A stretch of 35,390 nucleotides of DNA. Source: an uncultured Verrucomicrobia subdivision 3 bacterium (GTDB lineage Bacteria; Verrucomicrobiota; Verrucomicrobiia; Limisphaerales; UBA11358). A model generated the notes under the pieces. The model was not told the origin of the DNA, ran no database searches, and saw nothing but the letters and a program-made list of their open reading frames with translations. Of the stretch, positions 17,430 to 35,247 are shown piece by piece. The DNA lies in assembly GCA_903842235.1 (NCBI GenBank), contig CAIMLG010000292.1, forward strand, positions 1-35,390. The letters run 5' to 3'. The translations under genes and the position numbers were made by a program. Within the stretch, counting starts at the first letter, position 1; each line of letters opens with the position of its first letter.

Positions 17430-18008
17430 TCAGGCCTTTTTATGCCGGCGTTGCCAAAAGATGCGCCCGGCACCGCTCCCCACCAGGATCAAACCAAACC
17501 CGGCCAGGGCATAAGTGACCGGCTCGGGCACCACGGTGATGTCCAACGTCCAGCCGACCAGCCCGTTTTCAAATCCGGTGCTACTGGTATCCCATAACAC
17601 CAAACCCCAGGTGGTGTTGGGATCGTATCCATTCAAGCCGGAAAAGGTTGTTGAGGTATAAGTATGCAGTCCGGCACCGGAATTATCCACCGGGGTGAAA
17701 TTAACATACGGCGAAGTCGTCAGCGTGCCCAGCGTCAGCAGCCCTTGAATAGTGCCGGCGGCACCGGAAATTGGCAGCGAGGCACTGTCATTGAAGGTCA
17801 GGACGAGCTGGACACCGGTAATGGGGCCGCCCAAACCGCTCAAGGTTTGCTGCGCGGAATAGGTGGTGCCAGCCTGCGGAATCGCCCCCGAATCAGGGTA
17901 GGCGAATGAATAAGAAACCGAGGCCGGCGCGGAGAGGGTGACCAGCACCGCCAGCAGTCCGGCCAGCACCGCCAGCTTCAGGGTTTTTTTAATAAAAAAT
18001 GGGTTCAT
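17430..18008 (-). CDS. PEP-CTERM sorting-domain protein
   Basis: The 192-residue protein has a signal peptide (about 1-29) and a beta-sandwich body. It ends in a PEP-CTERM tail: VPEP at 160-163, a hydrophobic segment (VTYALAGFGLILVGSGAG) and a basic end (RRHKK). Such tails direct proteins to the exosortase/EpsH export and anchoring system. The region FSGLNGYDPNTTWGLVLWD and GLVGWTLDITV resembles the C-terminal strands of proprotein-convertase P-like domains; this is inference. It starts 21 nt after the giant adhesin gene on the same strand, so the two are probably co-transcribed. No exosortase gene is in the window. Confidence 0.9.
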   Translation of the reverse strand: MNPFFIKKTLKLAVLAGLLAVLVTLSAPASVSYSFAYPDSGAIPQAGTTYSAQQTLSGLGGPITGVQLVLTFNDSASLPISGAAGTIQGLLTLGTLTTSPYVNFTPVDNSGAGLHTYTSTTFSGLNGYDPNTTWGLVLWDTSSTGFENGLVGWTLDITVVPEPVTYALAGFGLILVGSGAGRIFWQRRHKKA

Positions 18009-18029
18009 AATTTTTAAGACGCTGGTGGG

Positions 18030-21000
18030 TTAATGGACGGCCAAGCGATAATAGGCGGTGGAGAGCGGGTTGGTATCGGTGTAAAGAACGATGCCGTTGG
18101 CCGCCGCCGTGATTCCGCTGGCGTAGGCGGTTAGGGAGATGGTCGTCCAAGTGGACAAATCAGGCGAACGCTGGACATCGTAGGCATGTCCGGGAATGCC
18201 GTAACCCACCAGATTCACGACCCCGATGCCAACGGTAGGCGGGTAAAGCACGCTCGTCGCCTTGCCCAACCGCACGGTCACGTTGGCCGTGCTCGTGGCC
18301 GTGCCGCCGGTGTAGCCGTCGCTGATGGTGTAGGTGAATGCGTCGGTCCCCACATAACTGGTCGTCGGCGTATAAGTGATCGTGCCCCCGCTCAAGCCAA
18401 CGGTGCCATGCGAGGCGCTGCCGACAGCGGTGATGGTCAGTGGGTCGCCATCGGCATCATAATCCAAACCCGCCAGGGTGGTGGCGCTGACGGCCAGGGG
18501 CGTATTTAACGTTGCTCCAAGATTGTGCGCCCCGGCGGTCGGCGGCGTGTCAATCACCTGGGTCAAGCTCCCAGTGCTGGTCAGGAAACCGCCTCCGCCG
18601 GAATATTCGGCGGTGACGGAAACATTGCCGTGGGCCAAAGTGGTGCTGGCGATCGTGGCAATGCCGCTTCCATTAAGCGTCGCCGCCGCGCCAAGGGCAA
18701 CGCCGTTGGTCTTGAATTGAACCGTGCCGGTGGGCGTCCCGGCACCGGTCACAGTGGCGGTAAAGACCACGCTCGTTCCGGGCAGCGCGGGATTCAACGA
18801 AGAGGTCAGGGCGGTGGATGACGGTGTCGACTGGGCGGTCAGCACGCCGGTCGCGCTGGTGCCAAAGTAAGTGCTATTTTTGTTGCTGGCGGCAGAGGCG
18901 GTTCCACCCCAAGTGCCGGTTGTCTGAGGCACGCCGTTAAGATAGAGGGCGGCGACCGTCTCCGTCGTGCCGCTGGTGAGCGTGACCATTGCGCCGCTGG
19001 CGATGCTCAAAGCGCCGCTGCCCAAACTGCCAGTTGCATTGGCGGTAAGCGAACCGGTGCTCACCGTGGTGCCGCCGGTGTAACTGTTGGCCGAGCCGAG
19101 GACAAGCGTGCCGGTGGAGGTCTTGGTGAGGTCATAACTCCCACCACTTTGACTGATGGCACCGCTCAGCGTCACGTTCCCAACCGTCGTATTTCCTGTG
19201 GGGCCGACTTGAATGGTCAGATTTCCCGTCAATGTCGGATAGGCTCCATTGACGGTGATGGCCGTTGTGTTCTGGTCGTCGGAATTGAATATGATCGTTC
19301 CTGACGAGGGAAAGGTCAAATTTGCGGTGCTCACGGTCAATGTGCCCACCCGGTTGGCCAGGCAGGCACCGGAGGCAAACGTCGTTGTATTGGCATAGGT
19401 GGCACTGCCTGCAAGATTAAAATCTAGTGTGGCACCGCTTTGGACAGCAACGGAAGAACCGTTGATCGAGTTCTGCGTGAAGACAAAAAGTCGGCCACTG
19501 TTCACGGTAATCGCGCCGATGGCATTGTTGCCGGAGGCCCGGTTCAGGATGAGATCATTCCCACCCGAGGTCAGCCCGGTGCCGCCGCTGATGGCTCCCG
19601 TAAAATAGAGCGGGACGCCCAGACTCACCGTCCCGCCCCCAGTGCCAAGCGTCACCGCGCGGGCGGTGGTGATGGCACTGCTGCCGGTGGTTTGCAAGGT
19701 GCCGCCGTTGAAGGTGATCCCGCCGCTGGTGTTGCCCAGGTTGCCGTCCGAACTGATAGACACGGTGCCGCCACTGTTGATGACCGTGCCGCCGGTGTAA
19801 GTGTTGGTCCCATTCAAGTCCAGCGTGCCACCCGTGACGGCTAAGGCGCCCCCCGATGTCCCGTTGTTGATGACACCGTTAGCAACGCCATTATTAACGG
19901 TCAAAGTCTGACTGGTGTTGATTGCGACGCCGCCGCCGGACGCAATGTTCAGGTTCTGCGCCGTTACGGACGCTGTCACTGTCACCGTGTGGGTATTCAA
20001 GACGCTGATCTGCCCCGTGGTTGCCGACGTGGGAGCGGAACCCGCTGTGACCCAAGTCGAGCCGTCGGAAGTGGTTTGCCAAGTGCTCGCCGTGGCCCAA
20101 GTGCCGGTGACTCGCGAGCGGTAGTCGCCAGGTAGCCCGTTAATAGTTATCGAGGAACTGGTGCCGGTCTTCCCTGTTTGATCTTTGGCAGAGAACGTGA
20201 CGGTCTCAAAATAATTGTCCTTCACGCTGATGGTGAACGTGCCGGCGGTGAGCGTTTTGACGTTGTTGTTGAAGGAACTGTCGCCATTGGCATCGAACAG
20301 CACATTGCCGGTGCTGCTGGTATTGGTCACCACTGTGGAATTGTCCGTGTTGACGGTGTTGCCGTTCGCGTCCTTGGCCGTGACCGTGACATTAAAAGCC
20401 GTTCCGCGCGTCTGCGGCGTTGTGGCGGTCACGGTGTAGCTGGCAATGGCACCCGGCGAGAACACAATGTTGCCGCTCGTGACGGACGCTAATCCCGACA
20501 TGCCCGCTGTTCGGGCAGCCGTCAAAGTCATGGTGTCGGCGGCCGAATAAACCGGAGTTGCAATGGTGACAGTGTTGGCACCGCTTGCAATGCTTCCCGC
20601 CAGCGTTCCGCTCAAGGTTCCGGCCCCAGTTGCTTTGCTCAAGGTAATCGTGGTGGCAGAGGTCACGTTTGCCGGATTGCCATTGGCGTCCTGTGACTGG
20701 ACGGTCACGCTGAAGGCTGTCCCCGCTATCCCCATGCTGGGCACTGTCGTGTAGGCCAGCTTGGTCGCCACACCGGCGTTGACGGTGAATGTGCCGCTGG
20801 TTCCGGTTTTGCCGCTCCCAGCGTGGTCGGTGACCGTGATGGTGACCAGCGTCCCGGACTTGGTCAGCGTCGCACTTTGAGTGGAGCGCACACCCGCCAC
20901 GAACGCGCTCGAAGTTGCCGGGCTGACGGTGCCACCCGCTCCGCCGCCGGTTTCCGTCATGTCCACCGTGCCCGTGAACGCATTGGGACCGGTGTTCAGC

Positions 21001-22217
21001 GGGTTGCCGTATACATCCAGCGCCGTGATGGTTGTAATGTTAAATGCCGTCCCTGCCGTTTGTGTTGTGGGCGTCGTCACTGTAAAATGGTCCAGTGGCC
21101 CCGGATTGACCGCGGTGATGGTGGTGGTGCCAACAATCGCGCCCGTAGTGGCCGTAATTGTTTTGCTACCTGCTGTAGCAACCGTCGGCGTCAGCGTCGG
21201 AAAGGTCGTCAACACGCCGGCGGTAAAGGCCGCTGAAGTCCCAGTTGCCCCCGCCGTGCCGGCAAAGGTCACCGTGCCGGTGAACGTATTGGGACCGTTG
21301 CTGCAAGTATTACCATTGGCATCCTTCGCCGTGATGCTGACAAAACTGCCGCTGATATCCGATCCCGCCGTCGCCGAAGCGATCGTCGTGGGATTCATAA
21401 TCAACTGGCTCACCGCCCCCGGCGAGAACCCGATGTTCCCGCTGGTGGCCGCCGTCAAAGCCGGCCCACTCCCAGATTTTGTAGCCGTCAAAGTCATCGT
21501 GTCCGCCGCCGAATAAACCGGGGTAGCGATTGTCACGCTGTTAGCACCGACCGCAATGGTCCCCGCAACGATGCCGCTGAGGGTTCCACCACCGGTCGCT
21601 TTGCTCAAGGTTATGGTAGCGGTAGCCGTTATCACATTTGCCGGATTGCCATAGGCGTCCTGCGACTGCACCGTCACACTAAAGGCCGTCCCCGCAATCC
21701 CGGTGCCCGGCACCGTCGTGAAGGCCAACTTTGATGCCGCGCCGGCGTTGACCGTGGTGATGGTGGTGGTGCCCACCAATGCGCCGGTGGTCGCCGTAAT
21801 GGTCTTGCCACTGCCCGCCGCCGTCGGCGTCAAGGCGGGGAAAGTCGTCAACACGCCGGCGGTAAAGGCCGCTGAAGTCCCGGTTGCCCCCGCCGTGCCG
21901 GCAAAGGTCACCGTGCCGGTGAACGCATTGGGACCGCTGCTGCAAGTATTACCATTGGCATCCTTCGCCGTGATGCTCGTCAGAGTGACCGGCGTGCCCG
22001 CCGTCGCCGTGGCGATCGTCGTGGGATTCATCACCAACTGGCTCATTGCACCCGGATTGACCGCAGCAATTGTGGCTGAACCCGTGGCGGCTCCGCTGGT
22101 CGCGGTCAGGGTCAAGCTGGTGCCGGCCACCGCTGGAGTCACGCTCGCGCCGCTCAAGACGCCCGAGGTGAATGCGGCGGACGTGCCCGTCACTCCCGCC
22201 GTGCCGCCAAACGTCAC
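18030..22217 (-). CDS. giant repeat adhesin, downstream part (frameshifted from 22214-24100)
   Basis: These 1,395 codons carry the larger part of one secreted adhesin; the GTG at 22217 is not a real start. In order it has about five Ig-like units (1-690) containing repeats such as SITAKDANGN and AGTAFSVTVQSQD. Two autotransporter-type beta-strand repeat regions follow (about 790-1060, with GTNTYTGGTVINSGG and ANSYTGGTTVSTGS). Next are a Big_3-like Ig domain (about 1133-1222), a cadherin-like domain (about 1225-1316), and a C-terminal module with YDVQRSPDLSTWTTI and YTDTNPLSTAYYRL, of a type often seen in verrucomicrobial surface proteins. There is no outer-membrane barrel. Restoring one base near 22241-22246 joins it to the upstream part, giving 2,023 residues. 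Confidence 0.85.
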   Translation of the reverse strand: MTFGGTAGVTGTSAAFTSGVLSGASVTPAVAGTSLTLTATSGAATGSATIAAVNPGAMSQLVMNPTTIATATAGTPVTLTSITAKDANGNTCSSGPNAFTGTVTFAGTAGATGTSAAFTAGVLTTFPALTPTAAGSGKTITATTGALVGTTTITTVNAGAASKLAFTTVPGTGIAGTAFSVTVQSQDAYGNPANVITATATITLSKATGGGTLSGIVAGTIAVGANSVTIATPVYSAADTMTLTATKSGSGPALTAATSGNIGFSPGAVSQLIMNPTTIASATAGSDISGSFVSITAKDANGNTCSNGPNTFTGTVTFAGTAGATGTSAAFTAGVLTTFPTLTPTVATAGSKTITATTGAIVGTTTITAVNPGPLDHFTVTTPTTQTAGTAFNITTITALDVYGNPLNTGPNAFTGTVDMTETGGGAGGTVSPATSSAFVAGVRSTQSATLTKSGTLVTITVTDHAGSGKTGTSGTFTVNAGVATKLAYTTVPSMGIAGTAFSVTVQSQDANGNPANVTSATTITLSKATGAGTLSGTLAGSIASGANTVTIATPVYSAADTMTLTAARTAGMSGLASVTSGNIVFSPGAIASYTVTATTPQTRGTAFNVTVTAKDANGNTVNTDNSTVVTNTSSTGNVLFDANGDSSFNNNVKTLTAGTFTISVKDNYFETVTFSAKDQTGKTGTSSSITINGLPGDYRSRVTGTWATASTWQTTSDGSTWVTAGSAPTSATTGQISVLNTHTVTVTASVTAQNLNIASGGGVAINTSQTLTVNNGVANGVINNGTSGGALAVTGGTLDLNGTNTYTGGTVINSGGTVSISSDGNLGNTSGGITFNGGTLQTTGSSAITTARAVTLGTGGGTVSLGVPLYFTGAISGGTGLTSGGNDLILNRASGNNAIGAITVNSGRLFVFTQNSINGSSVAVQSGATLDFNLAGSATYANTTTFASGACLANRVGTLTVSTANLTFPSSGTIIFNSDDQNTTAITVNGAYPTLTGNLTIQVGPTGNTTVGNVTLSGAISQSGGSYDLTKTSTGTLVLGSANSYTGGTTVSTGSLTANATGSLGSGALSIASGAMVTLTSGTTETVAALYLNGVPQTTGTWGGTASAASNKNSTYFGTSATGVLTAQSTPSSTALTSSLNPALPGTSVVFTATVTGAGTPTGTVQFKTNGVALGAAATLNGSGIATIASTTLAHGNVSVTAEYSGGGGFLTSTGSLTQVIDTPPTAGAHNLGATLNTPLAVSATTLAGLDYDADGDPLTITAVGSASHGTVGLSGGTITYTPTTSYVGTDAFTYTISDGYTGGTATSTANVTVRLGKATSVLYPPTVGIGVVNLVGYGIPGHAYDVQRSPDLSTWTTISLTAYASGITAAANGIVLYTDTNPLSTAYYRLAVH
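21182..21338. repeat. direct repeat, copy A, within the adhesin gene
   Basis: This stretch recurs at 21821-21977, offset by 639 nt (213 codons), with only a handful of differences. It encodes the SITAKDANGNTC to LTPT part of an Ig-like unit. High nucleotide identity, including third positions, points to recent duplication or gene conversion between modules. Confidence 0.75.
21821..21977. repeat. direct repeat, copy B, within the adhesin gene
   Basis: This is the second copy of the 157-bp repeat, 639 nt from the first and in the same frame. A looser repeat of a neighbouring unit (starting GCCGGATTGCCAT) occurs at 20671 and 21640, offset by 969 nt. Confidence 0.75.
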
Positions 22218-24100
22218 AGTCGAACTAAAGCTTGTGACCGTGGGCCGCCGGCATCTTGGGCTGTAATCGTGGGGATGGTAAAGGGCGTGCCCGCCGTCTG
22301 CGGCGACGAAAGCGCCGAGATGGCAAACTTGGCCACCGGCCCAACCCCGGTCGCGACCGTCAGCACGCCAGTTGAGGCAAAGTGGGTATTATCCTGAATA
22401 CTTGCAGTGGAGGTTGTGGAACCCCAAGTACCCGCCGATTGCGTCACGCCCAGGAAAGTCAGGCTGTTGGCGGTGGCTGTGCCGGTGAAGGTTGTGGTGG
22501 CCGTGCCCTCGAAATCCAGCGTCCCGCCGATGGTGGCTCCGGTCATCGTTTTCGCGCCACCGCCGGAAAAGGTGAGGTTGTTGTAGGTCACGGCGGCGAT
22601 GGTTTGTGCCGTAGCGTTGTTGTAATTCACAGTTCCGGTGCCCGCCGTAAATGTTCCGCCGGTGCCACTGGTCACCGTGCCCGCCAAGCTTAGATTCAAG
22701 GTACTGGAACCGCCATCGAGTGTGCCGGCGGTGCGCGTCCAAGTGCCGGCAAAGGTGTGGGTCAATCCGTTTCCAAGTTTGAGCGTGCCGCCGGTGCCGT
22801 TGATGGCCAGTCCGCCGCCGCTCACGTTGGCGGTAAAGGTGGCGGTGCCGGCCGTTTTGGTCATGGAAACCAAACCGGTGGTGGTGAAACCATCAATGCT
22901 CTGCGTGGCGGCGGAGTTAGTGATGACAATCGGTGAACTGCCGGCAGTGAAGGTGCCGCCGTTGTTGATGAAATCACCGCCAAAGAACAATCCAAAGTTT
23001 GCCGTGGCTAAGGTTGCGCCGCTGGCAATGGTCAACGGAACCGAAGTGCCAAAAACTTCAGCGGAGTTCATGGTAATCACCCCGGTGTTGGTGATGATGA
23101 TGCCGCCGGTGGCCGTAAACGGACTGATCCATTCTTCCGCTGACGCAGTCCTTGCAGTTGCGGTGTTGTATTGCAGCGTTGCATTGGCACCGTAGGTAAC
23201 CACCCCGGTGGTGACGGTGATGGTGGCGGTTCCTTCCAGAGAGAGAACGCCGTTCACCGTCGGGGTCGTGGTGAAGGTTTTTGCGCCTGAACCTGAAAGT
23301 GTCAGATTGGCGTAGGTTGTCACTTCTGCCGCTTGGGCGGCTCCGGTATAGTTGACTGTGTTGCCGCTGGCGGTGGCCGTTAGCGTCGTGATGCTGGAAG
23401 TCCCGCCGATATTCAAGGTCGAATTCGCGCCTTGAGTAAAAGATGTGCCGCTGACCGTGAACGTGGCGGTAACCGTCAGTGTGCCGTTATTCTGATATGT
23501 CCCGCTGAAAGTGGCTTGCGGCAGCGTCGTGGTTCCGCTGAGCGTTTTGCTCGTTCCGGTAAAATTATGCGTGGTGTTTTGGGCGGTGAACGTCGTGGCG
23601 TTGTTCGCAAAGTTACCGCCAAAGGAGAAAGTTGCTGCCGCGCCGGTGGTGGTTTCATTCCAAACCGCGCCGCTATTGAGCGTTACATCCCCGTTAAATG
23701 CCATGGCGCGCACGGTTACGCTGGTTGAACCAAAGTTTATCGTTCCGGATATGGTGGTGGCACCACTTACCGTAAACGGCCGATACATTGTAAGCGTAGC
23801 GCCGCTATTGACGGTAAGAACTCCACACGCCAGTGTGCCGCTACTCGTTGTGACAGGTGAACCTGAAGCGATGATCACAGTATCCGCCGAAGTGGGCGTG
23901 CCGTTTGGACTCCATGTGGTGGTTGTTCCCCAATCACCACCGGCTCCCGTGCTAGTATAGGTCGCCGCACTTGCCGTCGCCGCACCCAGCAGCGTGACCA
24001 GCAGCGCGAGGATGGGCAGAACCAGTTTGTCTTCATGCGTAAAAGCGGCGTTGGCGGTTGCAGCACGGGCCGACCCAAGTTTCAGATTCGGTGTTTTCAT
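22214..24100 (-). CDS. giant repeat adhesin, N-terminal part (ends at a frameshift)
   Basis: These 628 codons hold the true start of the adhesin. The signal peptide has an unusually long hydrophilic lead of about 26 residues, then LVLPILALLVTLLGAATASA. Passenger repeats follow, rich in Thr, Ser, Gly and Asn (TWSPNGTPTSADTVIIASG, then many SGTT and GGGA turns), of the beta-helix kind seen in autotransporter passengers. The last in-frame residues, AGTPFTIPTITAQDAGG, begin an Ig-like unit that is cut off; the next frame continues it as TVTSFSSTVTFGGTAG. AAGGA lies upstream of the ATG, at a longer than usual distance. The break is either a real mutation that inactivates the gene or a base-calling error. 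Confidence 0.85.
   Translation of the reverse strand: MKTPNLKLGSARAATANAAFTHEDKLVLPILALLVTLLGAATASAATYTSTGAGGDWGTTTTWSPNGTPTSADTVIIASGSPVTTSSGTLACGVLTVNSGATLTMYRPFTVSGATTISGTINFGSTSVTVRAMAFNGDVTLNSGAVWNETTTGAAATFSFGGNFANNATTFTAQNTTHNFTGTSKTLSGTTTLPQATFSGTYQNNGTLTVTATFTVSGTSFTQGANSTLNIGGTSSITTLTATASGNTVNYTGAAQAAEVTTYANLTLSGSGAKTFTTTPTVNGVLSLEGTATITVTTGVVTYGANATLQYNTATARTASAEEWISPFTATGGIIITNTGVITMNSAEVFGTSVPLTIASGATLATANFGLFFGGDFINNGGTFTAGSSPIVITNSAATQSIDGFTTTGLVSMTKTAGTATFTANVSGGGLAINGTGGTLKLGNGLTHTFAGTWTRTAGTLDGGSSTLNLSLAGTVTSGTGGTFTAGTGTVNYNNATAQTIAAVTYNNLTFSGGGAKTMTGATIGGTLDFEGTATTTFTGTATANSLTFLGVTQSAGTWGSTTSTASIQDNTHFASTGVLTVATGVGPVAKFAISALSSPQTAGTPFTIPTITAQDAGGPRSQALVRL
22241..22246 (-). 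other. site of a one-base deletion splitting the adhesin gene
   Basis: Reading on the minus strand, GAT GCC GGC GGC is followed by CC ACG GTC ACA AGC instead of a full codon and ACG GTC ACA AGC. Both sides continue the same Ig-like unit when compared with the sister repeats. The total span 18030-24100 is 6,071 nt, one short of a multiple of three, as expected for a single missing base. Confidence 0.75.
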
Positions 24101-24582
24101 GGTTATTTAATATCCTTGTCCTTCAGCAGCTTGAGGAAATTTTCGGGGGCTGGCCGGCGAATTGTCCACCGGCAAAAGCGACTTGTTCCAAGGCATTTAA
24201 GCCAGAACCGCTATGCAAAATGACTGCAAATAATCCAGCTTGTTTCATATTCACTAGAGTTCCACCTTTTGATTAGATCCAATCTAAATTAGATACTTAT
24301 TTAAAGAAGACCAATTTAGCCGATGATAGTCAAGCCCTTATTTGCCCATTTAAAGGGTAGCGGGTTACCCGATAAAAGCTCATTTAGGGTGTATTACTTT
24401 ATATTAATCTGGTTAGCACTCCATCCTGCCAACCCTAAGGCGGTGAAACGAACAGGCGGTGTCAACGTGTTGGATTTGGCAAGGCACTGCGCATCAGCGT
24501 ATCGGATCAATACACGATCTGGTTCCGCATCCACCGGCGGCTGGTCAAACGAGGTCGGGATTCACTGAAACCACCACAAGCT
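24101..24582. other. A+T-rich gap between the adhesin and the OPT transporter
   Basis: No gene is supported here. The stretch is clearly richer in A+T than its surroundings and contains the presumed control region of the adhesin gene, including the TTAGAT cluster at 24273-24294. A weak promoter-like pair on the minus strand (TTGGTC, 17 nt, TAATTT) overlaps that cluster. The part from about 24430 to 24582 is again G+C-rich. Confidence 0.5.
24273..24294. promoter_or_regulatory. three alternating TTAGAT half-sites upstream of the adhesin gene
   Basis: TTAGAT (24273-24278), ATCTAA (24282-24287) and TTAGAT (24289-24294) lie in alternating orientation with 3-nt and 1-nt gaps. Two overlapping palindromes result. 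They are about 175 nt upstream of the adhesin start and over a weak -10-like TAATTT. This is a plausible regulator-binding site; the regulator is unknown. Confidence 0.35.
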
Positions 24583-26616: not shown

Positions 26617-27597
26617 ATGACCACCTCGTTGAAAGATCAAGTCGCGGAAACGAACGCTTGGATCACCAAACTGCGCGCGGAAATCGCCCACGTCATCGTC
26701 GGGCAGGAACAACTCGTTGAGCGCCTGCTCGTCGGCCTGCTCGCCAACGGCCACGTTTTGCTCGAAGGCGTGCCCGGCCTGGCCAAGACGCTGTCCGTCC
26801 GCACGCTGGCGACCGCCGTGCAGGCCAAATTCAACCGCATCCAGTTCACGCCCGACCTGCTGCCGGCGGACATTCTCGGCACGCTGATCTACAATCCGCA
26901 GGACGGCAAATACCACGTCACGCGCGGACCAATCTTCGCCAACTTCGTCCTCGCCGATGAAATCAACCGCGCGCCCGCCAAGGTGCAAAGCGCGCTGCTC
27001 GAAGCGATGCAAGAGCGCCAAGTCACGCTCGGCGGTGAAACGATGAAGCTGCCGTCGCCGTTTCTCGTGCTGGCCACGGAAAATCCGATTGACCAGGAAG
27101 GCACGTATCCATTGCCCGAAGCGCAGGTGGACCGCTTCATGTTCAAGGTGATTCTCGATTATCCGAACGAGGTGGAAGAAAGAAAAATTCTCGACCGCAT
27201 GGCCTTCACCAGTCCGGAGCAACCGGTAAAGCCCGTCGTCTCCCTTGATGAAATCCTCGCGACGCGCAAGCTGGTGGACCAAATCCACGTGGACGACAAG
27301 ATCCGCGATTACATCGTGAAAATTGTTTTCGCCACGCGCAAGCCGCAGGATTTCAAGCTGGACGTGAAACATTTCATCCAGTTCGGGGCGTCGCCGCGCG
27401 CGACGATTTTCCTGACGCTCGCCGCCAAGGCGTGGGCGCTGCTGCAAGGCCGCGACTACGTGATTCCCGAGGACGTGAAAAGCATCGGCCCCGACGTGTT
27501 GCGCCACCGCATCATCCTCACCTACGAAGCCGAGGCGCAAGCCGTGACCACCGACGCGATCATCAAGAAAGTTTTCAACGCCGTGCCGGTGCCGTGA
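26617..27597 (+). CDS. moxR: MoxR-family AAA+ ATPase
   Basis: MoxR proteins are ATP-driven chaperones that mature or insert cofactors into partner complexes, usually with von Willebrand A-domain proteins encoded next to them. The 326-residue protein shows Walker A GVPGLAKT (51-58), the MoxR stretch QFTPDLLPADILGT, Walker B VLADEINRAP (111-120), the sensor LATENPIDQEGTYPLPEAQVDRFMFK, and the C-terminal lid (ASPRATIFLTLAAKAWALLQGRDYV). It is full length. It heads an operon continuing with DUF58, a DUF4381-like protein and BatA/BatB, but about 5 kb of other genes separate it from DUF58. Its stop overlaps the next start (GTGA). Confidence 0.95.
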   Translation: MTTSLKDQVAETNAWITKLRAEIAHVIVGQEQLVERLLVGLLANGHVLLEGVPGLAKTLSVRTLATAVQAKFNRIQFTPDLLPADILGTLIYNPQDGKYHVTRGPIFANFVLADEINRAPAKVQSALLEAMQERQVTLGGETMKLPSPFLVLATENPIDQEGTYPLPEAQVDRFMFKVILDYPNEVEERKILDRMAFTSPEQPVKPVVSLDEILATRKLVDQIHVDDKIRDYIVKIVFATRKPQDFKLDVKHFIQFGASPRATIFLTLAAKAWALLQGRDYVIPEDVKSIGPDVLRHRIILTYEAEAQAVTTDAIIKKVFNAVPVP

Positions 27598-28130
27598 AAA
27601 GAATAAAAATTATTTTCTGCCTCACGCTTGTTTTTGGCGGCGGATTATTGGGTTGTTCAACCATAAATCCATGTCGTAGCTGGCCTGTATTCTATGATTG
27701 CGAGAAGGGGCCAGAGCATCTTTTTATTTCACGCGCGCCGCAATCCATGGCTTTCTACACGAATGGCATTCCGGATTGGAATTATGATTTGCGCGTTCCG
27801 GCGGCAAAAATAACCTCGGCACAGATTAATGTGCTGGGAGAGATAGATGGATTGCGAATCATTGAAGTGCAACTTGCTCTGACAGATTTGTATTATACCG
27901 ACGTGTTGATAATTTTGGAGGAAGTCGAAACGGGACGATTTTTGCCAGTTTACGTTCAGGACTATAATCATGATGTCCGTTGGCCATCTGCGAACGTGCT
28001 TGCCAAAGAGGAAACGGAATTCACTGTAAATGCCGGCATGGACTACGCGGGCACCGGCCATTTTCACACTTATTATAAAATCATCATTTCACCGAATCAT
28101 AACCCGCTCGTGAAGGGATCATTTTATTGA
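27594..28130 (+). CDS. small predicted lipoprotein, unknown function
   Basis: The 178-residue protein begins KRIKIIFCLTLVFGGGLLGC, a basic lead and hydrophobic stretch ending in a lipobox-like LLGC with the lipidated cysteine at position 21. The rest is a beta-rich domain with no motif I recognise. The GTG start overlaps the moxR stop (27594-27597), so it is translated in coupling with moxR. The coding sequence is noticeably richer in A+T than moxR or DUF58, which suggests it came from elsewhere. It is followed after 18 nt by a decayed copy of the DUF58 gene start. Confidence 0.75.
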   Translation: MKRIKIIFCLTLVFGGGLLGCSTINPCRSWPVFYDCEKGPEHLFISRAPQSMAFYTNGIPDWNYDLRVPAAKITSAQINVLGEIDGLRIIEVQLALTDLYYTDVLIILEEVETGRFLPVYVQDYNHDVRWPSANVLAKEETEFTVNAGMDYAGTGHFHTYYKIIISPNHNPLVKGSFY

Positions 28131-28148
28131 TAATACTTTTGATTTACC

Positions 28149-28187
28149 ATGACCGCCACCAAACTGTCCGCATCCATCCACCGCGGG
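28149..28187 (+). pseudogene. decayed copy of the DUF58 gene start
   Basis: The first 13 codons beginning ATGACCGCCACC match the start of the real DUF58 gene (32566) at 30 of 39 positions by hand count. The bases upstream (TTTTGATTTACC) also resemble those before the better copy at 31774 (TTTTGTTTTTCCC). The frame soon stops, after 28 codons. Chance similarity cannot be fully excluded for this copy. Confidence 0.4.
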
Positions 28188-28261
28188 TTGGCGCACCCGC
28201 ACCACGACAAATTGCAGCGTGGCATCCGTATTTAATCATCGCTACTATCCAATCACTGACC

Positions 28262-30481
28262 ATGAGCAAACCGTCCGTTCATTTCTTCCGTCACCGCGAA
28301 GCGCTGAAATTGTGCAAACTACTCCTGCTGCTGGGCGGCCTGTTGACCCCGGTGATTTCCCACGCCGACGTGCGCCTGCCGCACGTCTTCGGCAACCACA
28401 TGGTTTTGCAGCAGGAAAAGCCGCTGACCATTTGGGGCTGGGCGACGCCCGGCGAAACGGTCACGGTGAAATTGGATCAGGTCACGCAGACAGCCAATGC
28501 CAATGCCAAGGGCGAATGGAAAGTCGTCTTGCCCGCCATGAAAGCGGCCGGGCCTTACACGCTCGTCGCGAGCGGTTCCAGCACGGTCACGTTGGACGAC
28601 GTGATGATCGGCGAAGTCTGGCTGTGCTCCGGGCAGTCGAACATGCAACTGGACATTGCCAGCGCCAACAATGGCAAAGCGGAAGTGGCCCAGGCCAATC
28701 ACCCCAGCCTCCGCCTGCTGGTGGTGGAACGACGTTGGACGCCCGAACCGCAGCGCGACCTGAGCGGCACCTGGAAAGTTTCTTCCCCGGAAACGCTCAG
28801 CGCGGGTGGTTTTTCCGCCGCCGCCTACTTTTTTGGCCGCGAGCTGAATGACAAACTGGGCGTGGCCGTCGGATTGATCGAGGCGGATTGGGGCGGCACG
28901 CGCATTGAGCCTTGGACGCCGCCCGCAGGCTTCGCGGCGGTGCCGGCTTTGCAGCAGGAATCTGAAAACGTGCAGCAGGGCATTCCGACAAGCCCGTTGC
29001 ACCAGGCGCGCCTGAGCCAGACGCTCGACCAGTATGCGCAGTGGGAAAAAGCCGCACGCCAGGCGCTGACGGCGGAGAGCGCGGTGCCGCCCGTGCCGGT
29101 CTATCCCGATGAATTGCGCCCGCCGCACGAGTTGCAGCAGGCCACGACGCTGTATAATGGCATGATCCATCCGCTGGCGCCGTTCGCCTTCCACGGTGCG
29201 ATCTGGTATCAGGGCGAATCCAATGTGGGCGAAGGCCGCTTGTATGCCGAGCACATGAAAGCCCTCGTGAACGGCTGGCGCACGCTCTGGGGCCAGGGCG
29301 ATTTCCCCTTCTTTTTCGTGCAGATTGCGCCCTACAAATATGAGGGTAAGCAAGAACGCGAGGCGGAACTCTGGGAAGCCCAAGCCATCGCGGCCGACAC
29401 CATTCCCAACGCCGGCATGGCGGTCATCAATGACGTCGGCAATCTCGGCAATATTCACCCCACCGATAAACAAACCGTGGGCCATCGCCTCGCGCTGCTG
29501 GCGCTGGGCAAGACTTATGGGCAGAAGGACCTGGTTTATTCCGGCCCCACCTTCAAGAGCATGACCGTGGCTGACGACCGCCTCCGCGTGACCTTTGATC
29601 ACGCGGGCGGCGGCTTGGCGAGCCGGGATGGAAAGCCGCTGAATTGGTTTGAAATCCTGGACGCCCACGAAGGTGGATTTGTCAAAGCCGAGGCCCGCAT
29701 CGAGGGCGACAGCGTGGTGCTCACCGCGCCCGCCGTGAAACATCCGGTGGCCATGCGGTTTGCCTGGAGCGGCCTGGCCGAACCCAATCTGATGAATGCC
29801 GCCGGCCTTCCCACCGGGGCCTTCCGCGCCGGCGAACGCCCCAAGTCCGTTTGGAGCGGCCTGAACGTTCCCGAAATGAAAGATTATCAATTGGTATATG
29901 ATCTGGACCTGACCCGGCTTGGCGCCGCGTTTAAATACAACGTGGACGACCACTGGAAAATTCAAAAGCCCTTCGACCGCATCGCCTATCTGCTCGAACT
30001 CGAGGACACCCACCAGAACACCCAAGCCATCTATGTTTCCATGGATGCGTTCACGGCCGATGCGGCCAGAATCGGCGTGCCCGTCTTTGGCTCCGGCGCC
30101 TTTTTTCAGCAGAACGTCACCAACCTGAATGTCTATTCCAACGTCAAAGACATCGTCACCGGCACCGGCCTGACCGGCGGCAATATTGAATTTTGGCCAA
30201 ATAACTACGGCGGGGGCAATTCCGCCCAGGTGCCGAATGCGTCCAGCGAGACGCTTGATTTCGGCGATCAAATTTTTGATCCGGCGGACGGCTACGGCAG
30301 CATGCAGGTGCACAATCACGAGGCGCGCCAGACGCTGTTCGCCATCAACCACTGGCGCGAAGGCAGCCGCGCGGACATCGGCATCGGCAATCAACCCACG
30401 GGCAGCCCCGACTGGACGTTTGCGAAGAATGCCGACAGCTACCGCACCATGCGCCTCCGCGTGCTGGTGCGCGGCCGGTGA
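28262..30481 (+). CDS. sialate O-acetylesterase-like SGNH hydrolase with extra C-terminal domain
   Basis: This predicted secreted esterase removes acetyl groups from sialic acid or other glycans. The 739-residue protein has a signal peptide (about 15-35), then DVRLPHVFGNHMVLQ and an Ig-like lead. The SGNH blocks are GQSNMQ with the nucleophile S126, then IWYQGESN at 314-321, and the D/H pair in NDVGNLGNIHPTDK (D391, H399). After the catalytic domain a second beta-rich domain of roughly 170 residues (about 565-739) is present that the basic family lacks. I start at the ATG at 28262, just before the signal peptide. The gene interrupts the moxR-DUF58 operon. Confidence 0.9.
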   Translation: MSKPSVHFFRHREALKLCKLLLLLGGLLTPVISHADVRLPHVFGNHMVLQQEKPLTIWGWATPGETVTVKLDQVTQTANANAKGEWKVVLPAMKAAGPYTLVASGSSTVTLDDVMIGEVWLCSGQSNMQLDIASANNGKAEVAQANHPSLRLLVVERRWTPEPQRDLSGTWKVSSPETLSAGGFSAAAYFFGRELNDKLGVAVGLIEADWGGTRIEPWTPPAGFAAVPALQQESENVQQGIPTSPLHQARLSQTLDQYAQWEKAARQALTAESAVPPVPVYPDELRPPHELQQATTLYNGMIHPLAPFAFHGAIWYQGESNVGEGRLYAEHMKALVNGWRTLWGQGDFPFFFVQIAPYKYEGKQEREAELWEAQAIAADTIPNAGMAVINDVGNLGNIHPTDKQTVGHRLALLALGKTYGQKDLVYSGPTFKSMTVADDRLRVTFDHAGGGLASRDGKPLNWFEILDAHEGGFVKAEARIEGDSVVLTAPAVKHPVAMRFAWSGLAEPNLMNAAGLPTGAFRAGERPKSVWSGLNVPEMKDYQLVYDLDLTRLGAAFKYNVDDHWKIQKPFDRIAYLLELEDTHQNTQAIYVSMDAFTADAARIGVPVFGSGAFFQQNVTNLNVYSNVKDIVTGTGLTGGNIEFWPNNYGGGNSAQVPNASSETLDFGDQIFDPADGYGSMQVHNHEARQTLFAINHWREGSRADIGIGNQPTGSPDWTFAKNADSYRTMRLRVLVRGR

Positions 30482-30531
30482 TGACGGGGGCGATCATCAA
30501 GAAAGTGTTCAACGCCGCGCCGATGACGTGA
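30481..30531 (+). pseudogene. second copy of the moxR 3' end, now a 16-residue mini-frame
   Basis: Positions 30490-30531 match the last 14 codons of moxR (27556-27597) at 38 of 42 positions. The copy reads MTGAIIKKVFNAAPMT, compared with TTDAIIKKVFNAVPVP in moxR. Its ATG overlaps the esterase stop (TGATG at 30479-30483) and its stop overlaps the next gene's ATG (30529-30533). The fragment therefore links the two neighbours translationally. Confidence 0.8.
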
Positions 30532-31298
30532 TGAAAAAGAACCCCACTTCAGTCGCATTGCCATGGGTGCTAGCCGTCGGCTTATTGGCCGTGGCTGCCA
30601 TTCAGGCAACCGGTGAACCCACGACCCTCGCCGAGTTGAATGCCTGGTATCCTGAAGTGCCTGCCAGTCAAAATGCCGCTCAATTGTATGCGGAGGCATT
30701 CACCATGTTGCCGGAAAGTTCATCGGACGCTCCGCCGCCAGTGGGACAAAGCCAGAAAATACTCGACCTGCTGCATCGCGCCACGACCTTCCCGCAATGT
30801 CGGTATCCGGTTGATTTTAACCTGGGTTTTCAAGCCAAGCTGCCACATCTGGCCAAGGTTAAATTAAGCGCGGAATTACTTCAGCAGGAAGCCATCCTCA
30901 ATGCGACGAAGGGCCGGATGGATTTAGCTATGCAATCAATTCAGGCGGGACTAGGCCTTGTCCGGTCGTTGGAACGTGAGCCGACGATCATTTCACAACT
31001 TGTCCGGTCACGGGCGATCGAACTCACCTTCACCGGATTGGAACAATCTTTGTGGCACAAGGCATTTACGGATGAGCAATTGAGCCAGTTGCAAGCGGCG
31101 TTCCAGATTGCGGAGACCAATGACGCAACGGCCTACAAACGGGCGCTGGCCGGCGAACGTTGCATGGGCTTGACGGCATTTCAATCGCCGCTCAACTTTT
31201 TTAAAACCGTCGGCGGCGAAAATCCTCTCGGTCCTGAGTTTGAAAAAAAGGTGGCCGACTATGTAAAGGGAGGAACCAACAAGCTGGATACGGAATAA
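30531..31298 (+). CDS. hypothetical envelope protein, 5' part, ended by an in-frame stop
   Basis: These 255 codons start with a membrane or signal segment (VALPWVLAVGLLAVAAIQA). A largely helical domain follows (LAELNAWYPEVPASQNAA, LLQQEAILNATKGRMDLAMQ). I do not know the family by name. The frame is closed by TAA at 31296-31298, but the same frame continues directly with the matching C-terminal half at 31299. One G-to-T change in a GAA codon would explain it. The ATG overlaps the stop of the moxR-tail fragment, copying the arrangement between moxR and the lipoprotein gene. Confidence 0.7.
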   Translation: MKKNPTSVALPWVLAVGLLAVAAIQATGEPTTLAELNAWYPEVPASQNAAQLYAEAFTMLPESSSDAPPPVGQSQKILDLLHRATTFPQCRYPVDFNLGFQAKLPHLAKVKLSAELLQQEAILNATKGRMDLAMQSIQAGLGLVRSLEREPTIISQLVRSRAIELTFTGLEQSLWHKAFTDEQLSQLQAAFQIAETNDATAYKRALAGERCMGLTAFQSPLNFFKTVGGENPLGPEFEKKVADYVKGGTNKLDTE

Positions 31299-31301
31299 TA
31301 T

Positions 31302-31760
31302 TTGAAACAAATGGGGGACGTCATCGGGATGATAGACGTTCCGTTCCCAGACCGGATCGACAAGGCATGGAGATGGAGCATCCAGATAAACAGCGCAGAT
31401 GAAAAAGGATTTCTCATTTCCCCAAGTCTCTTGCAGCCGCTCGCGACGGTTCCGGAGAAATCAGCGATCGGCGTGGCTGAATTGCGCGTCGCGCAGGTCG
31501 TCCTTGCCGCTGAACGCTACCGGCTGGCGCATAATAATTCGCTGCCAAATTCCCTTGCCGATTTGGTGCCGCAGTATCTCCCGTCTGTGCCGGCTGATTC
31601 CTTTGATGGGAAACCACTGCGCTTTAAAACAATTCCCCAACGTGGCTATATGGTCTATTCCATTGGCAAAGACCGCGAAGATGACGGCGGCATCCACAAG
31701 CCATTGAAACCAACCGTCGGCATGAGATATGACCTCGCCATGAGTGTGTTGAGGAAATGA
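31302..31760 (+). CDS. hypothetical envelope protein, 3' part (same frame, after the stop)
   Basis: These codons continue the frame of the preceding gene without shift. The start shown (TTG 31302) is nominal; ATG 31314 is another choice. It contains the best conserved part of the protein: LAAERYRLAHNNSLPNSLAD, VPQYLPSVPADSFDGKPLRF and YMVYSIGKDREDDGG. Similar stretches are common in hypothetical proteins of planctomycetes and verrucomicrobia and resemble the C-termini of pilin-like proteins. Joined, 30531-31760 encodes 409 sense codons plus the internal stop. It is most likely a recent pseudogene. Confidence 0.6.
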   Translation: MKQMGDVIGMIDVPFPDRIDKAWRWSIQINSADEKGFLISPSLLQPLATVPEKSAIGVAELRVAQVVLAAERYRLAHNNSLPNSLADLVPQYLPSVPADSFDGKPLRFKTIPQRGYMVYSIGKDREDDGGIHKPLKPTVGMRYDLAMSVLRK

Positions 31761-31773
31761 TTTTGTTTTTCCC

Positions 31774-31853
31774 ATGACCGTCACCGAACTCCTCGAATCT
31801 GTCCGCCGCGTGGAAGCCCGCACGAACCGGCTCGCGAACGATACGATGGGCGG
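31774..31853 (+). pseudogene. 80-nt copy of the DUF58 gene start
   Basis: It matches the first 80 nt of the DUF58 gene at 32566 with 73 of 80 identical bases. Five of the seven differences leave the protein unchanged, so the copy evolved as coding sequence before it was truncated. Homology ends abruptly after ATGGGCGG. The rest of the gap to 31904 holds no other recognisable feature. Confidence 0.85.
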
Positions 31854-31904
31854 TGGGCCGCAGCGGGCTTTGACTCCATTGGCGCAAAATGGTAATAGAA
31901 AGGC

Positions 31905-32213
31905 GTGAAGCTGAATTTCAATCCTGAACGATTGGGCCGGTTTTGCCGCGAGCGCGGCATTGCCCGGCTGGAATTGTTCGGCTCGGCTTTGCGGGATGAT
32001 TTTCGTGATGAAAGCGATGTGGACTTGCTCGCCACGCTGCGAGCCGACGCGCATCCAACCTTGCTCGACTGGGCGGACATGCAGGAGAAGCTGGCGGAAC
32101 TGTTTGGCCGTTCGGTGGACTTGGTGAGCCGCCGCGCCATCGAAAACAGCCGCAACCGCTATCGCAAACATTCCATCCTCACCACCGCGACCCCAATTTA
32201 TGCGGAAGGATAA
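31905..32213 (+). CDS. mntA: MntA-type minimal nucleotidyltransferase antitoxin
   Basis: The 102-residue protein is a minimal nucleotidyltransferase. G26-S27 in LFGSALRDDF, the D38-x-D40 pair in ESDVDLLA and a third acid at D72 (SVDLV) form the metal and nucleotide site. In characterised MntA/HepT systems this enzyme adds AMP to a tyrosine of the HEPN toxin and neutralises it. The start is a GTG at 31905. It overlaps hepT by 14 nt, the usual linkage. The pair sits inside the moxR-DUF58 operon, right after a duplicated DUF58 start. Confidence 0.88.
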   Translation: MKLNFNPERLGRFCRERGIARLELFGSALRDDFRDESDVDLLATLRADAHPTLLDWADMQEKLAELFGRSVDLVSRRAIENSRNRYRKHSILTTATPIYAEG

Positions 32214-32550
32214 CGCTCACTTGGCGGACATGCTGGAAGCGGCCAAAGCCATCCAGCGTTTCACCGGCGGAGTTTCTTTGGAGTCGTTCCAGGCGAACGA
32301 GGAAAAATACGAGGCGGTGAACCGCAAGTTCGAGATCATTGGCGAAGCCGCCCGCCGCCTGTCTCCTGAAGGCCGCAATTTGTTTCCAGAGATTCCGTGG
32401 CGGCTGCTCACGGCGATGCGAAACAATCTAATCCACGACTATGACGATGTGGATTTGAATGTGGTTTGGGACACCATCCAGCACGATTTACCGCCGTTGA
32501 TGGTCCATTTGGAAACTTATCTGGCCGCCAACCCGCCTCCGGAATCCTGA
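32200..32550 (+). CDS. hepT: HepT-type HEPN toxin (RNase)
   Basis: The 116-residue helical protein carries the HEPN catalytic motif R74-x4-H79-x-Y81 (RNNLIHDY). In the characterised systems Arg and His cut RNA and the Tyr is the residue modified by MntA. Length and helix pattern (EKYEAVNRKFEIIGEAARRL, then the motif) fit the HepT-like DUF86 family. The ATG at 32200 lies inside mntA. The toxin appears intact. The gene ends 15 nt before the functional DUF58 start. Confidence 0.9.
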   Translation: MRKDNAHLADMLEAAKAIQRFTGGVSLESFQANEEKYEAVNRKFEIIGEAARRLSPEGRNLFPEIPWRLLTAMRNNLIHDYDDVDLNVVWDTIQHDLPPLMVHLETYLAANPPPES

Positions 32551-32565
32551 TGGCCGAGTGCGGCT

Positions 32566-33549
32566 ATGACTGTCACCGAACTGCTCGAATCCGTCCGCCG
32601 CGTGGAAGTCCGCACGAACCGCCTCGTGAACGACACGATGGGCGGCGCCTATTTGAGCGGCTTCAAGGGGCGCGGCATGGACTTCGAGGATTTGCGCGAA
32701 TACATGCCCGGCGATGACGTGCGCGCCATTGACTGGAATGTCACGCATCGCCTCGGTCGGCCGTTCGTGAAGCGCTTCCGCGAGGAGCGCGAACTCACCG
32801 CCGTCCTCGCCGTGGACGTGTCCGCTTCGTCCAGCTTCGGCTCGGCCAACCGCACCAAGCGCGAGTTCGCGGCCGAGATTGCCGCCACGCTCGCGATGTC
32901 CGCCGCCAAAAACGGAGACAAGGTCGCGCTGCTGCTCTTCACCGACGAAGTGGAATTGTTCGTTCCGCCGCGCAAAGGCCGGCGACACATTTTACGGCTG
33001 GTGCGGGAGCTGTTGATGTTTCAGCCCAAGAAGCGCAGCACGGACATTTCCCAGGCGCTCGGTTTCTTGAACCACGTCCTGAACCGCCGGGCGCTGGTGT
33101 TTTTGCTTACGGATTTTTTACACTCGGGCGGCGGGGATTCTCCTCGTCCTGCCTTCTCGTCCTCGTCCTCGAACCGTTCCAGAAAAATCGAGGACGAAGG
33201 ACGAGAAGGAGGAGGATTTGGCGACCGCGACGTCATCGCCGAACTCGGCCTCACCAACACGCGGCACGACGTGGTCTGCCTGCACCTGCACGATCCGCGC
33301 GAGAGCGAATTGCCGGATGCCGGCCTCGTTACCATCGAAGATGCCGAGACCGGCGAGTTGCTGGAGCTGGATTCGGGGCGCGGGGCGGTGCGCGAACGGT
33401 TTGCCGCCGTCAACGCCGAGCGACTGGCGGAACTGGATCGCGCGTTCACTCGCACCGGCGTGGATACGCTGCGCCTTCAGACCACCGAGCCGTTTGCGCC
33501 GGCGCTGCAACGCTTCTTTGAACTCCGCCGCGGGCGACGTCGTGGTTAA
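32566..33549 (+). CDS. DUF58 domain protein of the MoxR/Bat operon
   Basis: DUF58 proteins contain a von Willebrand A-like fold and are thought to link MoxR to its targets. The 327-residue protein has the signature GFKGRGMDFEDLREYMPGDD at 32-51 and then DVRAIDWNVTHRLGRPFVK. The A-domain strand LAVDVSASS lies at 81-89, the strand ALVFLLTDF at 176-184 and RHDVVCLHLHDPRE at 233-246. Between about 187 and 220 there is an extra Ser, Arg and Gly-rich stretch encoded by a palindromic repeat element. Relatives normally run straight from the TDF strand to the helix before HDVV. The reading frame is kept, so the protein is probably still made. Confidence 0.92.
   Translation: MTVTELLESVRRVEVRTNRLVNDTMGGAYLSGFKGRGMDFEDLREYMPGDDVRAIDWNVTHRLGRPFVKRFREERELTAVLAVDVSASSSFGSANRTKREFAAEIAATLAMSAAKNGDKVALLLFTDEVELFVPPRKGRRHILRLVRELLMFQPKKRSTDISQALGFLNHVLNRRALVFLLTDFLHSGGGDSPRPAFSSSSSNRSRKIEDEGREGGGFGDRDVIAELGLTNTRHDVVCLHLHDPRESELPDAGLVTIEDAETGELLELDSGRGAVRERFAAVNAERLAELDRAFTRTGVDTLRLQTTEPFAPALQRFFELRRGRRRG
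33153..33208. repeat. palindromic repeat inserted in frame within the DUF58 gene
   Basis: The left arm 33153-33172 (CTTCTCGTCC then TCGTCCTCGA) and the right arm 33188-33208 (TCGAGGACGA then AGGACGAGAAG) are inverse copies apart from one extra base. The loop is 15 nt. The pattern of GAGGACGA blocks is typical of dispersed palindromic repeats. Looser pairing extends to about 33139-33218. Confidence 0.75.
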
Positions 33550-33573
33550 ATTGGAAATGAACCATCAGCCTTC

Positions 33574-33650
33574 AACATTGAACCTGCAACGCCCAAGGAA
33601 ATTGGGCGGTGAGCGTCGCGTTCGGTGTTGGACGTTGAAGGTTCAATGTT
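33574..33650. repeat. palindromic repeat across the DUF58/DUF4381 boundary
   Basis: The arms 33574-33591 (AACATTGAACCTGCAACG) and 33633-33650 are inverse copies at 17 of 18 positions. Inside, CGCCCAA (33590-33596) and TTGGGCG (33602-33608) form a second hairpin. The element ends 2 nt before the ATG at 33653 and is open in the next gene's frame, so it adds an artificial N-terminus to the longest version of that gene. Confidence 0.75.
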
Positions 33651-33652
33651 CA

Positions 33653-34210
33653 ATGTTTCTGCTGTTGTCGGCACTGCCGCTTTGCGCCCAGACAGCCACG
33701 AACGACCCGTTCGCGCTCGCACCGGCTTACGGCGAAATTCCGGCGACCTTTTGGGAGCGGCACGGCACCGGCATTTGCATCGGGGTGCCGCTCTTTCTCG
33801 CGTTGGGTGCATGGGTTTGCTGGGCGTTATTTCGACCCCGTTCACAACCGGTTCCGCCCCCGGCTGACCGGGCGCGGGCGGCGCTGGCAAAAATACAGGG
33901 GCAGACCGAAGACGCCGCAATTGTCGGCGCGATTTCCAGAATCGTGCGCGAGTATGTCTGCGCGGCGTGCCAATTGCCTCCCGGCGAATGGACCACGGCC
34001 GACCTGTCGGCTGCGATTGGGCATAATGAGCAGTTGGGCGCGGAACTGGCCAAGGCAATCGCTGATTTTTTGCGCGAATGCGACGAACAAAAATTTTCGA
34101 CCGGCACAGCTGCGTTTCCGCTGGGCGGCGCCCATCGCGCGTGGCGGCTGATCGAAATGGCGGAGCAACGCCGCGCGGCCGGACAACCGCAACCCTCCGC
34201 TGCCCAATGA
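33653..34210 (+). CDS. DUF4381-like membrane protein of the Bat operon
   Basis: The 185-residue protein, from the ATG at 33653, starts with a signal peptide (MFLLLSALPLCA, cleavage before QTATND). It has one membrane helix near 40-60 (GICIGVPLFLALGAWVCWALF) and a cytoplasmic helical domain with an IVREYVCAACQLPPGEWTT stretch. Position between DUF58 and BatA, size and layout fit DUF4381/BatX-type proteins. A longer start at 33557 would add residues translated from the palindromic repeat (PSTLNLQ and similar) and hide the signal peptide, so I prefer 33653. The stop overlaps the batA start (ATGA). Confidence 0.8.
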   Translation: MFLLLSALPLCAQTATNDPFALAPAYGEIPATFWERHGTGICIGVPLFLALGAWVCWALFRPRSQPVPPPADRARAALAKIQGQTEDAAIVGAISRIVREYVCAACQLPPGEWTTADLSAAIGHNEQLGAELAKAIADFLRECDEQKFSTGTAAFPLGGAHRAWRLIEMAEQRRAAGQPQPSAAQ

Positions 34211-35247
34211 CTGGCGAATTTGAATTCCAATTCCCGTGGGTGCTGGCGCTGCTGGGCCTGCTGCCGGTTTATGCCCTGCTGCTGGGAAAACATGGGCGGC
34301 TTTCGGCCCTGACCTTTTCCAGCGCGGAAATTGCCCGGGCGGCCGGCGCCAAAGCCCGGGCGGCCATCGGACGCTTGCTGCTTTTTCTCCGGCTGCTCGT
34401 CGTGGCGCTGGGCATCGGGGCATTGGCCGCGCCGCGCCTGGCGAATTATCACGTCGAGACCGAGACCCCGGGCATCGACATCATGCTCGTGCTGGATTTG
34501 TCGTGGTCGATGATGGCGGTGGACATGGGCCGGCCGTCGGAAAAATTATCGCGCTATGCGATTGCCTCCGGGGTTTTGAAAAGTTTCATTCAGGAACGGC
34601 CGAATGACCGCATCGGCCTGATCGCCTTTTCCGGCGTGCCGTATCTGGCCAGCCCGCTGACCCTGAATCACGACTGGCTGATCGACAACCTGGAGCGCCT
34701 GCACGTCGGGCTGATCGGCGACCTCGGCACCGCCATAGGCGATGCGGTGGCGGTGGGGGCCAAGCGCTTAAAAGCCGTGCCCAACAGCAAAAGCCGCGTG
34801 ATCATTCTGCTGACGGATGGCGATAACAACGCCGGCAAAATTGATCCCCTGCCCGCCGCGCAGCTGGCGGCGGCGCTGGGAGCCAGAATTTACACCATCG
34901 GCATCGGCGTGGAGCAGCCGTGCAATTTGCCCGCGTTCGAGCCCGCCACGGGAAAGCTCAAGCTCGACCCCAACGGAAATATCATTCCCACCATCCTGCT
35001 GCAGCCGGCGAACTACGCGGTGCTGGGCCAGATGGCGGCCCTGTCCGGGGGGCACTTTTACCGGGCCACCAGCCAGCGCGAATTGCAGAGCATTTACAGC
35101 CAGATTGATCATTTGGAAAAATCTGAAGTCAAACTCCGGCGGTTCGCCACCTATCAGCCGCTCTATCCCTGGCCGCTGGGCGCCGCGCTGGCGCTGCTGG
35201 CGCTGGAACTGGTTTTGCGGAGCACCAAATATCGCCGCGTGCCATGA
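34207..35247 (+). CDS. batA: von Willebrand A-domain membrane protein, BatA type
   Basis: The 346-residue inner-membrane protein has two N-terminal helices (about 10-27 and 56-76), a von Willebrand A domain (about 90-290) and a C-terminal helix (about 325-340). The metal-ion site is complete: D97-x-S99-x-S101 (DLSWS), T175 in GDLGTAIGD and D204 in LLTDGD. BatA/BatB proteins form surface or periplasmic complexes linked to MoxR and to envelope stress tolerance; the exact role in this phylum is unknown. The start ATG overlaps the upstream stop, and the stop overlaps the next start. Confidence 0.92.
   Translation: MTGEFEFQFPWVLALLGLLPVYALLLGKHGRLSALTFSSAEIARAAGAKARAAIGRLLLFLRLLVVALGIGALAAPRLANYHVETETPGIDIMLVLDLSWSMMAVDMGRPSEKLSRYAIASGVLKSFIQERPNDRIGLIAFSGVPYLASPLTLNHDWLIDNLERLHVGLIGDLGTAIGDAVAVGAKRLKAVPNSKSRVIILLTDGDNNAGKIDPLPAAQLAAALGARIYTIGIGVEQPCNLPAFEPATGKLKLDPNGNIIPTILLQPANYAVLGQMAALSGGHFYRATSQRELQSIYSQIDHLEKSEVKLRRFATYQPLYPWPLGAALALLALELVLRSTKYRRVP

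Follow-up and report, generated by a model that had tools for sequence, protein, structure and literature searches.

The window analysed here, a stretch of 35,390 nucleotides, is contig C292 of a draft genome (G000) of 4.32 Mb in 354 contigs, 88.65% complete and 4.27% contaminated. On its minus strand lie two long open reading frames, ORF A (24100..22214), which encodes 628 amino acids, and ORF B (22217..18030), which encodes 1395 amino acids from a GTG. The two ORFs are the upstream and downstream halves of one gene for a putatively exported Ig-like/PATR repeat surface protein. By eye, the N-terminus of ORF A looks like a signal peptide, a hydrophobic stretch followed by an AxA-like site, and after this putative signal peptide come Thr/Gly/Ala-rich repeats; ORF A matched no family in Pfam or NCBIfam. 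In ORF B, matches to Big_3_5, Big_9, Cadherin_5 and PATR pass the Pfam cut-offs, and TIGR02601, an autotransporter-type repeat, passes that of NCBIfam; no signal peptide was seen in this ORF by eye. The style of the C-terminal domain would suit a member of the Verrucomicrobiota.

Elsewhere in the window NuoB-E, ProB and SerA are intact. A tRNA-Gln gene (CTG anticodon) at 1525-1598 on the plus strand sits beside the nuo genes, which are on the minus strand. At 32200-32550 there is a HepT-like gene (Pfam PF01934), directly after a short ORF (region 31905-32550). Together they are a possible toxin-antitoxin pair, in which the short ORF would suit an MNT-type nucleotidyltransferase as the putative partner. 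Another candidate break in the window, near 11549, was dismissed, as relatives' proteins align along that gene in one frame.

One gene in two frames

ORF A and ORF B together span 6071 bases, that is 3n+2, which fits 2,023 residues and a stop codon if one base is missing. The frame of ORF B is -1 relative to that of ORF A and is open back to 22388, so that both frames are open across 22388..22217. In ORF A, homology in frame stops at 22241-22246 and the remaining C-terminal residues are out of frame; the point where it ends and the point where the in-frame homology of ORF B begins fall within one Ig-like unit. The coding sequence is otherwise undamaged: there are 618 stop-free codons on the A side of the break and 1403 on the B side, with GC3 of 0.66 and 0.73, and no second lesion was seen in the gene. 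Near-identical direct repeats lie inside the gene at 21205-21338 and 21844-21977, 639 bp apart, with shared exact stretches of 43, 40, and 38 nt, and recombination or misassembly could alter the number of units there.

As bait to locate the break we used a natural, unbroken Ig-like unit of 98 residues from a genome of the same genus (G009:C175). Residues 3-34 of the bait match the window at 22336..22241 in the frame of ORF A (E 7.3e-5), and residues 34-98 match it at 22244..22050 in the frame of ORF B (E 4.5e-17), so that the Ig-like unit split by the break, on the minus strand, extends over 22050..22336 by homology. A tblastn search on the cut-out loci finds the same two abutting matches in two frames. 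When the window is aligned as DNA to G009, there is one gap of one column, at the break, and none other away from the ends. A fifth-order coding model trained on the long ORFs of G000 ranks a switch at 22242 highest, and its six top points are 22241-22246. Homology and coding statistics are two independent methods, and they place at 22241..22246 on the minus strand a single net lesion, one base short (remainder 2), where coding passes from frame A to frame B.

A preliminary description of this DNA had proposed a one-base shortfall in a gene of 2,023 residues, with the two frames joining inside one Ig-like unit at 22241-22246. The length of the span, the split bait match, the one-column gap and the coding model all bear this out. 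The range given there for the lesion, 22235-22260, contains the break and is wider than it, and the strand, which was not given, is minus.

Within 22200-22300, the sole homopolymer of four is the GGGG from 22271; the longest one at the break itself is a GGG (22242-22244). Tandem Repeats Finder reports no tandem repeats in 18000-24200. Among the DNA compared there is no exact match longer than 15 nt touching 22230-22256, and a DNA search of the rest of the genome with 22000-22500 gives no second match over the break. Misjoining through the direct repeats 639 bp apart was considered and rejected: they stop about 260 bases short of the break, which no such exact match touches. An imperfect inverted repeat (22203..22248, arms 22203-22218 and 22233-22248, 75% complementary) spans the break; by eye in the DNA alignment, G009 does not preserve the perfect core of this repeat, and a function for it is not supported. 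The RNA around the break folds somewhat better than shuffled sequences do (z -2.18, with 4 of 200 shuffles as stable). We also dropped the motif GGGCC as a mark of the breaks: it came up post hoc at a handful of sites, and 10% of 40-bp stretches contain it or its complement.

Related units, gene context and predicted fold

The bait was searched against two sets of genomes, one of 49 and one of 293 from the order, the latter an even sample of a larger group. In the first set there are 18 matches: the bait itself, the two halves in the window, one in G027, and 14 that run through residue 34 without a change of frame. In the second set there are 40, which are again the bait, the two halves and the same G027 match, together with 36 that cross residue 34. 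The G027 match begins past residue 34 and is not counted as crossing. Counting by hand over the union of both sets we find 38 one-frame crossings, of which 34 belong to other genomes and 4 to other places in G000. Some of them are weak (E up to 7e-4), and one, in G096, does not resemble an Ig unit. Intact homologous units are thus found elsewhere, and two of the four further crossings in G000 lie in the broken gene itself. In both searches the window is the sole match that is split in two. Residue 34 of the bait is invariant in ten aligned intact units.

Among long relatives of ORF B the best is G004:C58, with 46% identity over residues 107-1094; it lies in a single open frame of 1987 amino acids. 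It lies at least 3 kb from a MoxR-DUF58-BatA cluster, and members of these families also occur in the window, at 26617-35247; this relative may share part of the window's neighbourhood. In all nine of the relatives' serA loci examined, serA, a PPIase gene and the next gene are together. Among the six of these loci with at least 9 kb on the upstream side of serA there is no clear counterpart of the broken gene there, with the exception of one weak match of 87 residues in G026. Since none of these relatives clearly has it beside serA, the broken gene looks accessory. A contig search with P0002 returned 8 distant loci; own or very near genomes may be left out of that search, which makes it uninformative on conspecifics. 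A related Ig-repeat gene in another genome (L178:1-860, G121:C138) also shifts frame inside a unit, near 390-420, with a masked stretch soon after; in drafts of this kind, breaks may be commoner in repeat-rich surface genes than in other genes.

For the intact G009:C175 unit a beta sandwich is predicted with high confidence (mean pLDDT 93.7), in which six strands are at least three residues long. In this predicted structure residue 34 sits in the loop between strands 21-29 and 44-47, and on that model the break cuts the Ig-like domain after the second of its six strands. Fold comparison of the predicted unit gives Z 9.1 for invasin 1cwv (rmsd 2.7, 89 aligned) and Z 9.0 for FdeC 4e9l (rmsd 2.5, 93 aligned), the latter also having a weak sequence match (E 0.006). 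The Ig-like domains of GH2 enzymes score Z about 10, as high as or higher than the adhesin domains, and Foldseek has no match for the predicted unit at E 0.001 or below. The fold therefore supports "Ig-like" and not "adhesin". The latter name, which the gene had been given earlier, is reasonable in view of the Ig-like/PATR domains and the predicted Ig-like fold, with binding itself putative.

Other breaks in the same genome

How common are such breaks in this draft? We sampled 80 stretches of G000 (0.92 Mb, about 770 kb of it coding), and used its relative G016 for comparison. Relatives' ORFs compared with 68 distinct G000 genes gave 3 candidates, one of them real (the GH127 gene on C70) and the other two judged to come from spurious query ORFs. 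A frame-shift caller counting direct switches found 16 in the 770 kb of coding DNA of G000 vs. 5 in 646 kb of G016. With a second setting, which uses equal switch costs and keeps overlapping open frames with coding signal on both sides, there are 27 candidates in G000 vs. 6 in G016 over the same lengths; this filter misses the GH127 break, and the G+C of 0.597 in G000 vs. 0.564 in G016 may lengthen chance overlaps in G000. A permissive run gives at least 130 plus 9 junctions in G000 and at least 96 plus 9 in G016, and many of these junctions look like ordinary boundaries between adjacent genes.

We tested 21 G000 junctions with Pfam, and some also with NCBIfam; 17 are among the 27 candidates and 4 come from outside. 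The outcome is 3 in-gene breaks, 13 pairs of neighbouring genes, and 5 undecided junctions (L128, L198, L048, and two in L049). A junction was called as neighbouring genes when each side has a different family or, for L214 and L121, when complete related domains lie on each side. For G016, five of the six candidates were tested, and none shows the same family on its two sides; for one of them, a family is present on a single side.

Three further genes of G000 are broken, all of dispensable kinds. One is a GH127 beta-L-arabinofuranosidase gene, broken near 1358 of L117 (C70), where one Pfam profile crosses the break, with its positions 1-213 on one side and 217-376 on the other. Another is a fused MFS/spermidine synthase, broken near 17933 of L113 (C30); the profile of the fused family matches both sides, one of them just under cut-off, and ten relatives at 46-66% identity have open frames of 909-1061 amino acids around the same domain. 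The third is an exported PATR/DUF5005-like protein, with PATR, DUF5005-like, and then fn3 and laminin-G domains, broken at a run of seven G (L133:7912-7918, C25 near 27,912). Six related loci match this protein only to residue 855-856, which is the seven-G run, and one paralog continues in a single frame. This site is a better candidate than that of the window for phase variation, or for a homopolymer error. Near 7683 of L048 (C100), beta-propeller and cytochrome c parts lie in two frames, and both match in order a beta-gamma fusion profile (hydrazine synthase-like, far under cut-off); this is perhaps a further broken gene.

With the window included, the in-gene breaks of G000 number at least 4 over some 770 kb of coding sequence, or about one per 190 kb as a lower bound. 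The numbers are small, and the contrast between G000 and G016 is suggestive at most.

What the break represents

The break, a single lesion in an otherwise healthy gene, is either recent or artefactual. The reading that we favour, at roughly even odds (about 0.5), is that a one-off, non-programmed, recent single-base indel broke an accessory gene for a very long exported Ig-like/PATR surface protein. We infer a lesion of recent date that is present in the DNA of the organism and not in the consensus alone, and a loss of function. The broken gene would yield a secreted fragment of at most 628 amino acids that ends inside an Ig-like domain and would lack the C-terminal two thirds of the protein. 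The downstream part, having neither a signal peptide nor a convincing start, would not be displayed.

The closest competitor, to which we give a substantial weight that stops short of even odds, is that the gene is intact in the organism and a base was lost in the draft by low coverage, strain mixture or platform indels. An error of consensus or assembly explains all observations of the break equally well, including the clean single lesion in an otherwise healthy gene. The draft in 354 contigs and its incompleteness speak for it too, as do the 4 confirmed in-gene breaks (window included) vs. none of five tested in G016; the 27 vs. 6 caller candidates could also mean a noisier assembly, with the G+C difference as a possible contributor. 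Against it, the common sources of indel errors and misjoins are missing: the site has no homopolymer, and in the DNA compared no exact repeat longer than 15 nt touches it. The rate of breaks, moreover, is one that ordinary pseudogenes would be expected to produce just as well as ordinary draft errors. What makes us lean slightly to a real mutation is that the breaks fall in genes of dispensable kinds, with NuoB-E, ProB, and SerA of the window left intact.

We regard all of the remaining explanations as very improbable. Long surface proteins are typical targets of phase variation, in which reversible gain and loss of a base at the site would switch the gene, and the inverted repeat that spans the site could in principle template single-base changes. 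However, the break has neither a homopolymer over three bases nor a tandem repeat, and the perfect core of the inverted repeat is, by eye, absent from G009. A survey of phase-variation signatures scanned for single-nucleotide tracts longer than six bases (PMC4746626). Slim as the chances of phase variation in general are, those of the specific form in which the inverted repeat templates the base, and a very long surface protein alternates with a short secreted fragment by a homopolymer-free reversible switch, are slimmer. The earlier argument against slippage, made from the lack of a long homopolymer, holds; of the readings offered with it, phase variation has found no positive support, while pseudogene and sequencing error both stand. 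Two separate, translationally coupled genes have an equally poor prospect. The GTG of ORF B at 22217 does overlap the TGA of ORF A, in a GTGA at 22214..22217 on the minus strand, but such an overlap arises wherever a TGA follows A, G, or T, with G giving the GTG, and we judge it a coincidence. Moreover, the sequences on either side of the break make up a single Ig-like unit, ORF B has by eye neither a Shine-Dalgarno sequence before its GTG nor a signal peptide, and its best long relative is one open frame. The last explanation, programmed -1 ribosomal frameshifting joining both frames, we hold the least probable of all. The frame of ORF B is the right one for it, both frames are open over 22388..22217, and the RNA is somewhat more stable than shuffled sequences, but by eye G009 does not have the core stem. 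On the other hand, reading the codons by eye, there is no slippery heptamer of the form X XXY YYZ at the join, and homologous units in relatives cross without any frame change, which leaves nothing conserved for frameshifting to act on.

For annotation, ORF A and ORF B should be treated as a single broken gene instead of two proteins, and the break is no ground for claiming a switch. Were its state to differ within one clone, this would be surface variation of an unusual kind, with no simple repeats behind it.

The literature searched had nothing recognisable on the broken gene or on the break site, and comparison is with known kinds. The invasin/intimin/FdeC-type surface proteins with Ig-like repeats have a fold similar to that predicted for the intact unit, but sequence identity is 19-22% and GH2 domains fit equally or better, and the fold does not name a function. 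With PATR/autotransporter-type repeat proteins (PF12951, TIGR02601), ORF B shares the same repeats above curated cut-offs, whereas the Pfam and NCBIfam matches of the broken gene include no autotransporter beta-barrel family. Genes that vary in phase by homopolymer tracts (PMC4746626) have in common with this one a frame break in a probable surface-protein gene, and differ in having the tract. Also close are frameshift pseudogenes, and the false pseudogenes that indels make in draft MAGs, as documented for nanopore MAGs (PMC8103633). With these the broken gene shares a single net indel, two open frames that abut and intact homologs in other places; the window site differs in having no homopolymer, and the nanopore case may not apply to the G000 draft.
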